From Thermus sp. CCB_US3_UF1 (GTDB lineage: Bacteria > Deinococcota > Deinococci > Deinococcales > Thermaceae), in NCBI RefSeq assembly GCF_000236585.1, contig NC_017278.1:372001-436000 (forward strand): DNA of 64,000 nt. Reading direction: 5' to 3'. Position 1 is the stretch's first letter; each line of letters opens with the position of its first letter. A model generated the notes under the pieces. That model was not told the DNA's origin. It ran no database searches and was given only the letters and a program-made list of their open reading frames with translations. The translations under genes were made by a program, and so were the position numbers. This document shows, piece after piece, positions 33,612 to 53,352 of this stretch.

Positions 33612-34547
33612 TCAGGTGTGGTCCTGGACCACCTCGAGCCCCAAGGCGGTCAGGCGGGCCACCAGGGCCCGCACGGCCGCCTTCACTCCCTCGGTGAGGA
33701 GGGGGCTGGCGAACCGGCTGGCCCCGGCGTAGATCCCGTGGGCGCTTGGGCGCACCTCCAGGAGAAGGTCCTGGGTGAGCTCCTCCTCCTCCACATGGGT
33801 CAGGATGTAAAAGCCCGTCTCCCCCCGGGCCACCTCCAGGAAAACCGCCACCCCTCCGGGGAAGGGGATGGGTTCCTTGCCTAGGGGTAGGGACTCGGGC
33901 AGATCGCCGGCCAGAAGGGCATGGGCCATGGGGTACCTCCGCGTGGGGGGCCAGGGGGTGGGGTCCTCGGCCACCTTGGTGAAGACCGCGTGGAAGAAGG
34001 GCCGGCCCGCCTCCTTCCACTTTAGGGCGTATTTGGTGCGCAGGTGGGCCTCCGGGGGGGGCTCCACATGGATGCGGTAGAGCCCCGTGCGCTCCGCCTC
34101 CTCCAGGGCGAAGCGGAAGTAGGCCTCGTGGTCGGTGGTAAGGCGGAGGGAGCCTCCTTCCTCCAGCCGGGTGGAAAGCCGGCGGAAAAACCCCTCCTGC
34201 AGGAGGCGTTTCCGCTGGTGGCGCTTTTTGGGCCAGGGATCGGGGAAGTTGACGATGACCTGATGAAGGCCCCTGGGGGGCACCAGGTTCCTCAGGGCAA
34301 AGGGCCCTTCCCCATGGTACAGGCGCACGTTGGCCAGGCCGGCCCGGCGCAGGCGCTTTAGGGCCCTAAGGACACTGGCCGCCGAAACCTCGGCCCCCAG
34401 GATGAGCCAGCCGGGGTGGGTTTGGGCCAGCTCGGCGGTGAAGCGGCCGTCGCCAAAGCCCACCTCCAGCACCAAGGGGCCTTCCCGGCCAAAGAGGTCC
34501 GAGGGGCTTGGGGGCCAGGAGGGAAGGAGGGCGGGGCGGACCAGCAC
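33612..34547 (-). CDS. trmB: tRNA (guanine-N7-)-methyltransferase, long form
   Basis: 311 residues from a GTG at 34547 ([13 protein letters not shown]), chosen because TAGAAT with a 17-base-spaced TTGTGA lies just upstream; a TTG at 34571 would be inside that promoter. Methylates G46 in the variable loop of tRNA using S-adenosylmethionine. Motifs: [17 protein letters not shown] near residue 30 (AdoMet loop), [20 protein letters not shown]-like [11 protein letters not shown] near 105, and TTDHEAYF. About 100 C-terminal residues beyond the usual catalytic core match the extended TrmB of thermophiles (Aquifex, Thermus). Confidence 0.93.
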
Positions 34548-34555
34548 GGAAGGGG

Positions 34556-34584
34556 ATTCTACCTTTTTCAAAGCCTTTTCACAA
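34556..34584 (-). promoter_or_regulatory. trmB promoter, leaderless
   Basis: TTGTGA (34579-34584), 17-base spacer, TAGAAT (34556-34561); the GTG start follows after 8 bases. The spacer lies exactly under the tandem repeat at 34565-34583, so a protein bound there could block trmB. Confidence 0.65.
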
Positions 34585-34598
34585 GGAGGGGCTAGGGT
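34565..34598 (+). promoter_or_regulatory. Tandem-repeat operator and -10 box of the DUF4388/HD-GYP operon
   Basis: TTTTCAAAGCCTTTTCACA (34565-34583) contains TTTTCA twice with an 11-base period. Nine bases later comes TAGGGT (34593-34598). This is the layout of class II promoters activated by PhoB/OmpR-type regulators, where the box replaces the -35. A 17-of-19 match lies upstream of pilA at 52102-52120 in the same orientation and at nearly the same distance from the ATG. Confidence 0.6.
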
Positions 34599-34620: not shown

Positions 34621-35214
34621 ATGTCCCTATTCGGCAACCTCCGTTCCCTCCCCTTGGAGGAGCTGCTTCAGTTATTGGCGCAGAAGGAGGGGGCGCTGGA
34701 GATTTGGAACGTCCGGGGGGTGCCCGCCACCACCCTGTACCTCAAGCCAGGCCGCCTTCGCTCCCTGGACCAGGGGGGGAAGCCCCTGGACCCCGTGGAC
34801 GCCAAGGCGGCCCTCCAGGCCCTGCTCCTGGCCCGGGAAGGAAGTTTTGAGTTCTGCCCTGGGGCCAGGCCCCCGCACGCCTTCCGCCTCAACTGGCCCT
34901 TGGAGCGGCTTCTCCTAGGCCTCATCACCTTTTCCGACGAGCTCGCCCACCTCCGTCCCCACCTGCCTCCTCCCCGGGCGGTCTTCCGCGTGGAGAGGCC
35001 AGCCCCAGGGCCAGGGGGCCTCGAGGGGCAGGCCTTCTGGGAAAAGGCCCTCCCCCACCTGCGGCAGGGGACCACCCCCGAGGCCTTGGCCCGGCTTTTG
35101 GGGATGCCTTTGGACCTGGTGCGCTACCGGCTTTACCAGCTGGAGGGGCAGGGCCTGGTGCGGCGCACCGGGCAGGTGAAGGGGCTTGGGCGGTCTGGGG
35201 GGGTGGGGTCGTGA
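34621..35214 (+). CDS. DUF4388 domain protein (PatA-like N-terminal domain)
   Basis: 197 residues, ATG with AAGGAGG 8 bases upstream. Residues 1-95 fit DUF4388 ([24 protein letters not shown], then a [17 protein letters not shown] strand-turn region). The C-terminal 60 residues, [33 protein letters not shown], resemble a winged-helix or Roadblock-partner type helix-turn-helix. DUF4388 proteins often accompany two-component and motility genes and act in signalling through protein contacts. Its stop overlaps the response regulator GTG (GTGA), so the two are co-expressed. Confidence 0.75.
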
Positions 35215-36173
35215 GGGGCCCGGCTCTTCCCCGGGTGCTGGTGGCCGAGGACGACCCCGGGCAACGCTTCCTCCTGGCCCGGGCCATGGCCCCCCTGGGG
35301 GTGGAGGTGTGGCAGGCCCCCAACGGCCAGGAGGCCCTGGGCCTCCTGCGCCAGGGCCTGCCCCACGTGGTCCTCGCCGACCTGCACATGCCCCTTATGG
35401 ACGGCTTGGAGCTTACGCGTCGCCTCAAGGCCCTGGACCCCTTGCTGCCCGTGATCCTCCTCACCGCCGATGCGGAGCGGGAGGTGCGCCTCCAGGGAAT
35501 CCAGGCCGGGGCGGACGATTTCCTGCACAAACCGGTGGACCTGACCGAGCTCCGCCTGCGGGTGGGCGGGCACCTGGAGCGGCGGAGGCTGCAGGAAAAG
35601 CTGGAAGACCTGGAACGGGCCCTTTTGGCCCTGGTGCGGGCGGTGGAGGCCAAGGACGCCTACACCGCCGGGCACGGGGAACGGGTGGCCACCTACGCCC
35701 TGTACGCGGCGGGAGAACTGGGGGCGGGGGAGGAGGAGCTCGCGGATCTGCGCCTGGGGGCCCTGCTGCACGACGTGGGCAAGATCGCCCTTCCCGACCC
35801 CATCCTGCGGGGGGGGTATCCCCTGACGGAGGCCGAGTGGCGCGCCATCCGCGAGCACCCGGTCAAGGGGGACGAGATCCTCAAGCCCCTGCGGGCCCAC
35901 CCCCGCCTCCGCCCCTACGTGCGCTGGCACCACGAGCGCCTGGACGGCTCCGGCTACCCCGACGGCCTCACCGAGGTTCCCCCCCTGGTGCAGGCGGTGG
36001 CCGCCGCCGACATCTACGACGCCCTGACCAGCGGGCGCACCTACCGCCAGGCCTTGCGGCCGGAGGAGGCCCTGGAGGCCCTGGAGGCCGAGGTCCGTCA
36101 GGGCAGGCTTTCCCGGGAGGTGGTGCGGGCCTTCCGAAGCGGCATGGCGCGGAACCGCTTCCGGCTCACCTAA
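35211..36173 (+). CDS. Response regulator with HD-GYP c-di-GMP phosphodiesterase domain
   Basis: 320 residues. Receiver domain at 8-125: acidic pair DD at 14-15, phospho-acceptor Asp57 in LADLHMP, Thr in ILLTAD and Lys in HKPVD. The HD-GYP domain (about 145-315) has HDVGKIALPD, the EHPVKGDEIL block, WHHERLDGSGYPDGL and AAADIYDALTSGRTY, that is, all metal-binding and GYP residues. It should hydrolyse cyclic di-GMP under control of an unidentified sensor kinase, opposing the GGDEF enzyme at 12979. Convergent with ubiD (4-base overlap). Confidence 0.95.
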   Translation: MRGPALPRVLVAEDDPGQRFLLARAMAPLGVEVWQAPNGQEALGLLRQGLPHVVLADLHMPLMDGLELTRRLKALDPLLPVILLTADAEREVRLQGIQAGADDFLHKPVDLTELRLRVGGHLERRRLQEKLEDLERALLALVRAVEAKDAYTAGHGERVATYALYAAGELGAGEEELADLRLGALLHDVGKIALPDPILRGGYPLTEAEWRAIREHPVKGDEILKPLRAHPRLRPYVRWHHERLDGSGYPDGLTEVPPLVQAVAAADIYDALTSGRTYRQALRPEEALEALEAEVRQGRLSREVVRAFRSGMARNRFRLT

Positions 36174-48177: not shown

Positions 48178-48906
48178 TCACCACCCCACAGAACAGGAAA
48201 CCGTGTAAGGGGTTTGGTTGTTGCCTTGGCCTACGAAAAGCTGTAGGGTGAAGGTGTAGCTTCCTGTTTTGAAGTTTTTGTCAAAAGTGAAGTCTAAGGT
48301 TGCGTTTCCAAAGGTAAGGCTCTGGCTCAAGGAAACCTGGGAGCCCTTTTTGACGCCTTTATTGTCCGACCAAAGGGTGGTGCTTCCCTGGTATATCTCC
48401 TTGAGACGCCTTTTACCTTCCCCATTCCAAGAAAGGGAAAGAACCTTGGTAGAGATGGTAGCTCCCGTGTTGCTGATCTCCATGCGTAGCCGATTTGGGG
48501 ATACCTTTCGGCAAGAGGCGCTGAAGTTGGGGCTGGGAGGGGGAGGGGGAGGAGAGCCTTCCCAAGAAATCTGGGTGAGGAAAAAGCTCTCTCCCTGGGC
48601 AACATCCTCAAAGCGATAGGTAAAGGCTTGCAGGGTGGTGTTGCTGGGGGGGGAAAGGGAAACCCCAGCCATCTGGCGGCAGATCCGGTAGGCCTTGCCC
48701 GCCAGGGTTACCGAGGCGCTGGTAGGGCAGGTGGGCGCTGCAACCCCGGCTTCCAAAAGGGTTTCTGCCGCTTGTAGGACCTCCTCCTGGGGTCCTGTGG
48801 CCGTTCCGGCCCGTAGGGTCTGCGAAAGGGCCAACACCATGTACACCACCGCCCCCACCAGGAGCAGGGCCACGGCGGCTTCCACCAGGGTGAAGCCCTT
48901 CCTCAC
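48178..48906 (-). CDS. Prepilin-like protein (PilV/GspI type), larger minor pilin
   Basis: 242 residues from the GTG at 48906, overlapping the upstream stop as GTGA (longer readings to 49002 are not coding-like). Signal MRKG|FTLVEAAVALLLVGAVVYMVLAL with Glu5. A proline run (SPPPPPPSP) near residue 150 divides an N-terminal pilin part from a C-terminal beta domain with Cys residues. The C-terminal half has low G+C: 24 of 60 bases at 48241-48300 by hand count (40%), against about 70% in neighbouring housekeeping genes, suggesting transferred or fast-changing sequence. Confidence 0.85.
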   Translation of the reverse strand: MRKGFTLVEAAVALLLVGAVVYMVLALSQTLRAGTATGPQEEVLQAAETLLEAGVAAPTCPTSASVTLAGKAYRICRQMAGVSLSPPSNTTLQAFTYRFEDVAQGESFFLTQISWEGSPPPPPPSPNFSASCRKVSPNRLRMEISNTGATISTKVLSLSWNGEGKRRLKEIYQGSTTLWSDNKGVKKGSQVSLSQSLTFGNATLDFTFDKNFKTGSYTFTLQLFVGQGNNQTPYTVSCSVGW

Positions 48907-51666: not shown

Positions 51667-52062
51667 CTATTTGAAACGCAAGTTGACCTTTAAGGCATTC
51701 GTAGCCGAGTTGTAGGTCTTGGCCCCGGTGGCGTAGACGGAAATGTCCGCGTTGCCAGCCGCAGGATTTGCGTTAGCGCAGGAGACCACCACATTGCCCG
51801 CCAGGGTTACGCTGGAGGATCCGCTACCTATATTGACCCCTTCCAACCCGTTGAGCACGTCGGAGCAGTAGTCGGGATAGTCCTTGTTCTGGGCTACATA
51901 GATGGCGTAGGCCGAGCGCACGGAGCTGGCGGTGGCTTGTACCGCAGCGTCCTTTGCGTCGCCCGACAGGTCTACAAACCTGGGTACAGCGATGGCCACC
52001 AGGATGCCGATGATCACGATCACGATGGCCAGCTCGATCAGGGTAAAGCCTTTAGCCTTCAT
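51667..52062 (-). CDS. pilA: Type IV pilin PilA, probable major subunit
   Basis: 131 residues from the ATG at 52062 with AAAGGAGG 6 bases upstream. Signal MKAKG|FTLIELAIVIVIIGILVAIAVPRF, Glu5 present, then VRSAYAIYVAQNKDYPDYC and a small beta region with one Cys pair (YC and SCANANP), similar in size to T. thermophilus PilA4/PilA5. As the first and strongest-SD gene of the locus it is probably the main filament subunit. Its upstream region contains a tandem repeat operator at 52099-52120 and an inverted TTTCACA at 52074-52080. Confidence 0.92.
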   Translation of the reverse strand: MKAKGFTLIELAIVIVIIGILVAIAVPRFVDLSGDAKDAAVQATASSVRSAYAIYVAQNKDYPDYCSDVLNGLEGVNIGSGSSSVTLAGNVVVSCANANPAAGNADISVYATGAKTYNSATNALKVNLRFK

Positions 52063-52073
52063 CTTCTGCCTCC

Positions 52074-52120
52074 TTTCACAGGTCCCAGTGTGGGGCAAGG
52101 GTGTGAAAAGGGTGTGAAAA
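52074..52120 (-). promoter_or_regulatory. pilA upstream region with tandem TTTTCACACCC repeat
   Basis: On the coding strand, TTTTCACACCC occurs twice in direct tandem (plus-strand 52110-52120 and 52099-52109), and TGTGAAA, the inverse of TTTCACA, follows at 52074-52080 next to the Shine-Dalgarno sequence. After the second TTTTCACA and 9 bases lies CACACT, a weak -10. The TTCACA-N5-TTCACA pattern fits OmpR/PhoB-type boxes, and the 19-base core recurs at 34565-34583. Confidence 0.6.
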
Positions 52121-52218: not shown

Positions 52219-53352
52219 ATGCGGGTGGGTTTGGCCTGGGCCCTGGCCTTCCTCTTGGGGGGCATGGGGGCGAAGGGTTCCCCAATGGAAGCCCTCCTGG
52301 TTTTACAGGAAGAGGCCATAGAGGAGGGCCGCCTCCTGACCTACACCGGGGTCCAGCGCTACCCCGTGGCCTCGGAAGGGGAGCTCTTGGCCCTGCTTAA
52401 GCGGCTTGCCCGCCCCCCCCGGCCCCCCCGGTTCATCCTGCAGGATGGAAGGTGGCGGGGGGTGGAGAAGAAGGGCCTGTCCTTTGACGAGGCCGAGGTC
52501 CTGGCCGCCTACCGCCAGGCCCTGGCCGCGGGCCAGGGAAGCTTCCGCCTGCCCGTGCGTTACACCCCGCCCCAACCCAGCCTGAAGGCCCTTTACGCCC
52601 TGGGGGTGCGGGAACACCTGGCCACGGGGGAGACGGACTTTCGCGGTTCCAGCCGGGCCCGGCTGCACAACCTCCTCCTGGCCTCCAGCAAGCTGGACGG
52701 CCTCCTCATCCCCCCGGGGCCTTTTTCCTTCCACCAGGCCCTGGGCCCGGTGAGCGAAGAGGCAGGGTACCGGGAAGCCTTCGTCATCGTGGGGGACCGG
52801 ACCGAACAGGGGATTGGGGGTGGGGTCTGCCAGGTTTCCACCACCCTGTTTCGCGCCTTCTTCTTCGCGGGCCTCCCCATCCTGGAGCGCCACGCCCACA
52901 GCTACCAGGTGGCCTACTACAAGCCCACCGGTTTGGATGCCGCGGTCATCGCCCCCCACAAGGACCTTCGCGTGCTCAACGACACCCCGGGCCACCTCTG
53001 GGTCCAGCGCTCGGTGGTGGGCACCCGGCTTCGCTTCCACCTCTTCGGCACCAAGGACCGGGAAGTGCGCTGGGAAGGCCCCTTTGTCTCCGAGCGCAAG
53101 CCTCCCCTCCCCCCCAAGGAGGTGCTGGACCCCTCCCTGCCCCCGGGGGTGCGCCAGCAGGTGGACTTCGCCGCCGAGGGGGCCCGGGTGGAGGTGCGCC
53201 GCACCGTGCGCTACCGGGATGGCCGGGTGCGGGAGGAGAGGCTGCTGAGCCTTTACCGTCCCTGGGGGGCGGTCTACCGGGTGGGGCCTACCCCACCTGC
53301 AAAAGCACCGCCTTCTCCACCGGCAGGAGGCGGTGGGGCTCGCTCACCTTAG
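52219..53352 (+). CDS. VanW family protein, exported
   Basis: 377 residues. Signal peptide MRVGLAWALAFLLGGMGAKG. The VanW domain (about 130-275) is complete in its hallmarks: NLLLASSKLDGLLIPPGPFSFHQALGP, GYREAFVIVGDRTEQGIGGGVCQVSTTLFRAFFFAGLPILERHAHSYQV. A G5-like beta part follows (290-355) and a Pro/Gly-rich tail. Function unknown: named after vancomycin-resistance clusters, but widespread in spore formers and thermophiles with a presumed cell-wall role. The last 65 bases overlap the convergent cupin gene, an unusually long overlap, and the tail may be dispensable. Confidence 0.9.
   Translation: MRVGLAWALAFLLGGMGAKGSPMEALLVLQEEAIEEGRLLTYTGVQRYPVASEGELLALLKRLARPPRPPRFILQDGRWRGVEKKGLSFDEAEVLAAYRQALAAGQGSFRLPVRYTPPQPSLKALYALGVREHLATGETDFRGSSRARLHNLLLASSKLDGLLIPPGPFSFHQALGPVSEEAGYREAFVIVGDRTEQGIGGGVCQVSTTLFRAFFFAGLPILERHAHSYQVAYYKPTGLDAAVIAPHKDLRVLNDTPGHLWVQRSVVGTRLRFHLFGTKDREVRWEGPFVSERKPPLPPKEVLDPSLPPGVRQQVDFAAEGARVEVRRTVRYRDGRVREERLLSLYRPWGAVYRVGPTPPAKAPPSPPAGGGGARSP

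Follow-up and report, generated by a model that had tools for sequence, protein, structure and literature searches.

Do the genes for a type IV pilin and for the turnover of c-di-GMP answer to one regulator in Thermus, and through which DNA signal? The question is raised by two nearly alike sequences in a 64,000-nucleotide stretch of the Thermus sp. CCB_US3_UF1 genome (called the window): TTTTCAAAGCCTTTTCACA (34565-34583, plus strand), 37 bases ahead of the ATG at 34621 of a DUF4388 gene, and TTTTCACACCCTTTTCACA (52120-52102, minus strand), 39 bases ahead of the ATG at 52062 of a pilin gene. Thermus is a model for natural transformation and twitching, and very little is known about the regulation of pilA4 or of the type IV pilus in this genus (PMC10507856); in addition, T. 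thermophilus lacks chemosensory genes of the Pil-Chp/Tax1 type (PMC12024867). The original prediction proposed that both sites are a tandem operator through which one OmpR/PhoB-family regulator controls pilus and c-di-GMP turnover genes together, possibly repressing the adjacent trmB gene as well.

On recheck of the sequence, the agreement of the two sites in 17 of 19 bases, the 11-bp period and gene orientation at both, and the distances to the two ATGs proved exact, and the TAGGGT said to follow the DUF4388-side repeat after 9 bases is present at 34593-34598. At the pilin-side site, CACACT (52092-52087) stands at the same 9-base distance after the repeat, and this -10 of the strain itself is weak. 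Both sites belong to a single promoter type, TTTTCACA-N3-TTTTCACA-N9-TAnnnT (Table 1).

Within the operon, the GTG start of the HD-GYP gene overlaps the stop of the DUF4388 gene, and the C-terminus of the DUF4388 protein gives a weak HTH_20 match (E=5e-4) that falls below the HTH_20 cut-off. In two genomes (L022, L026) DUF4388 is lost or damaged beside the repeat, which there precedes the HD-GYP gene, and this suggests that HD-GYP is the gene that matters in the operon. The structure that best matches the window pilin, 8qqj_J, is entered as 'Type IV narrow pilus major component PilA5', so the gene that had been called pilA is identified as PilA5; the pilin at 851 kb of the same genome is of the wide-pilus PilA4 type (match 6xxd). 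A VanW-like gene of another genome (L048, G008), which has a repeat of its own, resembles the window gene at 52219-53352 that is divergent from pilA5.

Within the window, TTTTCANNNCCTTTTCACA with at most 3 mismatches was found 3 times against 0.08 expected per shuffled window, one of the three being an overlapping 11-bp shift of the pilA site, and the repeat together with its -10 was matched twice against none in 100 shuffles. A looser pattern without the -10 gave 8 matches in the window against 4.25 expected, which is not significant and would suit the view that the two sites resemble each other by chance; the strong case therefore rests on genus-wide counts. A match at 48267, inside an open reading frame and with 3 mismatches, was dismissed as chance. 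When the search of Thermus genomes that had been proposed as a check was run, TTTTCANNNNNTTTTCACA with at most 1 mismatch gave 97 sites in 27 genomes against 2 in a reversed control, and among exact box pairs in Thermus genomes, with the gap left free between 0 and 30 bases, 16 of 17 had a gap of 5 (the 11-bp period). Tested for chance frequency and unrelated positions, which would have counted against it, the original prediction was not refuted; the genus-wide enrichment and ortholog conservation already refute chance, to which we assign a negligible probability.

Conservation was assessed with orthologs picked by protein alone, whose upstream regions were then read, which avoids selection by motif. 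The repeat is found at 8 of 8 PilA5 loci (box 2 ending ~39-54 bp before the start), at 17 of 19 PilA4 loci (~193-213 bp ahead of the start codon; a contig end cuts one of the two loci that lack it) and at all 18 DUF4388 loci whose start could be read (32-38 bp ahead of the ATG). The last count leaves aside more remote DUF4388 paralogs that lie elsewhere. Six genomes gave no DUF4388 match at the threshold used, so membership of the regulon varies. The sites align as YTTTCACA-N3-YTTTCACA-N9-TAnnnT, with 1.73-2.00 bits per column in the boxes and three -10 columns versus 0.48-1.37 in the flanks; the DUF4388 upstream flank is comparatively high, at 1.27 bits, because the trmB promoter and start lie there. 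The shared repeat occurs across nearly all Thermus species.

Outside the genus, the motif count in the largest related genus (g4) was not above control, and the sister genus g5 (genome G049) has two clean sites and no control site. With the -10 included, G049 has further sites ahead of a PilA4-type pilin, a DUF11-operon gene, a large surface protein and a PEGA-type gene. At two Meiothermus pilin loci (L184, L186), the 350 bp ahead of the matched pilin are free of such a repeat; this pilin is the second gene of a pair, and the promoter of its operon lies beyond that stretch.

Eight downstream gene families account for 83 of the 91 distinct sites: type IV pilins, DUF4388-HD-GYP, a leaderless receiver-like gene (two sites tallied here had the wrong reading frame from a scripted call), GGDEF diguanylate cyclases (Pfam E below 1e-39 in the four genomes tested), short and long genes of a DUF11 operon, a ~200-aa secreted protein, and receiver or HD-GYP genes. 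In the strain's own genome, the pattern with the -10 included and at most 3 mismatches gave 14 sites against 1 control site, and 9 of these shortly precede target genes (Table 1); the other five, inside genes or before unrelated ones, were taken as chance. The receiver-like protein at G000:C2:936773 has 120 aa, no Pfam match and orthologs in at least 13 other genomes; its gene is leaderless, with a GTG ~6 nt past the -10, and is among the most constant targets. Two full repeats 28 bp apart, making four boxes, precede the ~200-aa secreted protein in two genomes (L036, L064), and a weak repeat is seen at a mechanosensitive-channel-like gene (MscL-like by eye) in L111 (G010) and L073 (G018). No site of the own genome stands before a phosphate uptake gene (pst, phosphatases, phoBR) or near the phoB-phoR-phoU-like cluster, and a metallophosphoesterase carries a site in only one other genome (L072). 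A Pho (phosphate) regulon was ruled out as the gene content, since the own-genome phosphate-uptake genes are without boxes.

Table 1. Features of the two window promoters, their neighbouring genes, and sites in the own genome. Positions are those of the window unless prefixed G000:C2 (own genome).
Feature	Position	Strand	Evidence
Box 1, DUF4388/HD-GYP promoter (TTTTCAAA)	34565..34572	+	1.73 bits/column, 17 distinct orthologous promoters picked by protein
Box 2, DUF4388/HD-GYP promoter (TTTTCACA), 11 bp past box 1	34576..34583	+	1.78 bits/column
Presumptive -10 TAGGGT, 9 bp past box 2	34593..34598	+	orthologs tAgGgT; 1.74 bits at T, A, T columns
DUF4388 (PATAN-type) protein, first gene of operon	34621..35214	+	Pfam PF14332 E=3.2e-9
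Receiver + HD-GYP protein, presumptive c-di-GMP phosphodiesterase	35211..36173	+	PF00072, HD_5; motifs HDVGK, HHERLDGSGYP
trmB-like tRNA methyltransferase gene, GTG start	33612..34547	-	PF02390 E=3.4e-39
Divergent trmB promoter -10 TAGAAT, 8 nt before GTG	34556..34561	-	ATTATA (= TATAAT on other strand) in most orthologs
Presumptive trmB -35 TTGTGA, 17-bp spacer, overlaps box 2	34579..34584	-	sequence
Box 1, pilA5 promoter (TTTTCACA)	52113..52120	-	1.93 bits/column
Box 2, pilA5 promoter (TTTTCACA)	52102..52109	-	2.00 bits/column
Presumptive pilA5 -10 CACACT, 9 bp past box 2	52087..52092	-	CAt.CT in orthologs
pilA5 ortholog, major pilin of narrow type IV pilus	51667..52062	-	best solved-structure match 8qqj_J, E=1.2e-21
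Site before DUF4388	G000:C2 406565 (window 34565)		
Site before PilA5	G000:C2 424120 (window 52120)		
Site before PilA4	G000:C2 851261		
Site before GGDEF gene	G000:C2 795242		
Sites before receivers	G000:C2 936773 and 1796996		
Sites in DUF11 operon	G000:C2 186844 and 190151		
Site before PEGA/DUF4384 protein	G000:C2 1995662		

From the repeat, its spacing, the linked -10, the conservation and the gene set, we infer that these sites are probably activator-dependent promoters of one Thermus regulon of surface-lifestyle genes, under an OmpR/PhoB-type regulator and with an effect on trmB included. A direct repeat of 6-8 bp boxes with an 11-bp period is present, and in the orthologous sets a sigma-A -10 appears to follow it immediately (N9, then TAnnnT), with the repeat standing where a -35 would be expected. 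In the proposed mechanism, a dimer of an OmpR/PhoB-family response regulator would bind head-to-tail on the two 8-bp boxes (YTTTCACA), 11 bp apart, occupy the -35 position and recruit sigma-A RNA polymerase to the TAnnnT -10 that lies 9 bp downstream. The regulon would switch on both major pilins, PilA4 and PilA5, the c-di-GMP enzymes (GGDEF cyclase and HD-GYP phosphodiesterase), two stand-alone receivers and secreted proteins (DUF11 and others), leading to a programme of surface attachment and twitching. Co-regulation of pilus and c-di-GMP genes makes sense, since the T. thermophilus pilus motor, PilF, is a c-di-GMP-binding protein and the binding affects twitching and attachment (PMC12024867; PMC11731258). 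The common operator of the original prediction is thus strongly supported and serves a wider set than proposed (PilA4, PilA5, HD-GYP, GGDEF, receivers and secreted proteins), while the regulator family it named is one that fits the geometry.

A fixed distance between box and -10-like element is typical of promoter elements, so the boxes might form an extended -35 of an alternative (ECF-type) sigma factor, with no operator involved. A sigma factor needs one box, however, and here there are two, nearly identical, 11 bp apart and conserved to about the same degree; in addition, box 2 ends 9 bp before the -10, too near for a -35 with a 16-18 bp spacer, and a TAnnnT -10 is of the ordinary sigma-A type. 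An alternative sigma factor is very improbable and was ruled out on account of the two boxes and their short distance to an ordinary -10. It is also improbable, if less extremely so, that the bound factor acts as a repressor and not as an activator at these promoters: sites just upstream of a -10 can serve repression, and the opposite-strand trmB promoter is probably occluded, but by eye the DUF4388 and pilA5 promoters have no canonical -35 at the proper spacing and carry the boxes in its place, as at pho-box promoters. Rather unlikely, finally, is the same operator and regulon under a direct-repeat binder of another family, such as a SARP-like/AfsR-type winged helix or a MerR/BldC-like protein. 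BldC-type proteins are reported to bind direct repeats too (PMC5859096), and in one genome (L052) a site precedes a 564-aa protein that is AfsR/BTAD-like by eye. That neighbour is found in a single genome, however, and it is for OmpR/PhoB proteins that boxes with a strict 11-bp period right before a -10 are classical. The box read by M. tuberculosis PhoP agrees with the Thermus one in its period and in its TCACA core (PMC4832192).

An activator of the OmpR/PhoB type would also bear on trmB. The claim that the repeats overlie the trmB promoter holds, and the overlap is conserved: most orthologs have TATAAT ~8 nt ahead of the GTG, and the presumptive -35 falls within box 2. Because the promoter -10 is just 8 nt ahead of the GTG, the trmB transcript is probably leaderless. 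A protein bound to the boxes would exclude polymerase from the trmB promoter, and we infer repression of trmB from this arrangement; bound between DUF4388 and trmB, the regulator would mask the presumptive -35 of trmB, with less trmB transcription as the probable result.

Which protein binds the boxes was asked of the seven OmpR-family regulators with a Trans_reg_C domain in the own genome. Near six of their genes there is no site at up to 6/19 mismatches, and the seventh has a 6-mismatch match only, so that autoregulation failed as a way to name the regulator. Regulator (a), G000:C2:1898075-1898746, has no adjacent kinase gene in the stretch read; all 27 Thermus genomes and G049 have an ortholog of it (77-90% identity), and the same threshold gave nothing in other genera except two 55-56% matches in g4. 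The distribution of (a) is that of the motif, a weak indication from a single clade, and (a) can be put forward as the regulator only tentatively. Regulator (b), G000:C2:538373-539044, is followed by a kinase gene and has the recognition helix NVVDVYIGYLRKK. M. tuberculosis PhoP reads TCACA with Asn212, Val213, Tyr217 and Tyr220 of NVVESYVSYLRRK (PMC4832192), and (b) is the only one of the seven with all four of these contacting residues (Asn, Val, Tyr, Tyr). However, nearly all Thermaceae, Meiothermus-like genera among them, have (b) at 91% identity or more, with the helix conserved wherever it was read, and the motif is unenriched outside Thermus and G049. Naming by recognition helix alone was rejected, as (b) matches PhoP yet is conserved in genera without motif enrichment, and the identity of the regulator with (b) is somewhat unlikely. 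The evidence for the two candidates conflicts.

The shared signal points to one putative master regulator of Thermus surface life. It is possible, although we would not count on it, that the clade-specific orphan (a) is this undescribed regulator, with control over both pili, c-di-GMP synthesis and breakdown, lone receivers and surface proteins, and with feedback through c-di-GMP on PilF. No prior report of the operator was found in the papers searched, whose coverage leaves out most subscription journals. The observation is real and reaches further than proposed: a new regulon with a tandem operator of OmpR/PhoB type and a gene set unrelated to phosphate. A defined operator, a target list and a short candidate list make pilus control directly testable, both pilus types become tied to c-di-GMP at the level of transcription, and a reason is offered why the pilA4 promoter, which already serves as an expression tool, responds to temperature and medium.

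In T. thermophilus HB27, temperature and medium govern the transcription of pilA4, for which no regulator is named, and a 499-bp upstream region is more active and more strongly regulated than one of 206 bp (-25 to -231) (PMC10507856). The published -35/-10 prediction lies 131-170 bp upstream (PMC10507856), nearer the start than the repeat in the genomes analysed here (~193-213 bp); by comparison with relatives, the HB27 repeat should lie near the upstream edge of the 206-bp fragment. Upstream of pilA4 (for example, in L030 and L105), a leader of ~190 nt separates the repeat-linked -10 from the pilA4 start and contains a hairpin of a C-run and a G-run. After this hairpin comes TTGAC(A/G), a candidate for a second promoter of the ordinary kind, possibly the one of the published -35/-10 prediction.

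Farther afield, a Truepera metagenome-assembled genome (L177) carries TTGTAAGA-AAC-TTGTAAGA-N9-TATACT ~150 bp upstream of a major-type pilin at 561, and weaker versions of this repeat are seen at two other Deinococcota/Trueperaceae loci (L187, L181). This TTGTAAGA-N3-TTGTAAGA-N9-TATACT arrangement, the same geometry with a different box before a pilin, suggests that pilins were controlled in this way before the genus Thermus arose.

The pho box of E. coli PhoB likewise consists of two head-to-tail boxes with an 11-bp period that replace the -35, ~9-10 bp before a sigma-70 type -10. The Thermus repeat has the same head-to-tail geometry in place of the -35 and differs in its box, YTTTCACA, and in its targets, which are pilins, c-di-GMP enzymes and surface proteins and include no phosphate genes. 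The box of M. tuberculosis PhoP is a 7-bp TCACAGC with a 4-bp spacer, TCACAGC-N4-TCACAGC (PMC4832192). Although the Thermus box is without the conserved 3' GC, its columns past TCACA varying or reading C(C/G), and has extra conserved T's before TCACA, it shares with the PhoP box the direct repeat, the 11-bp period and the TCACA core.
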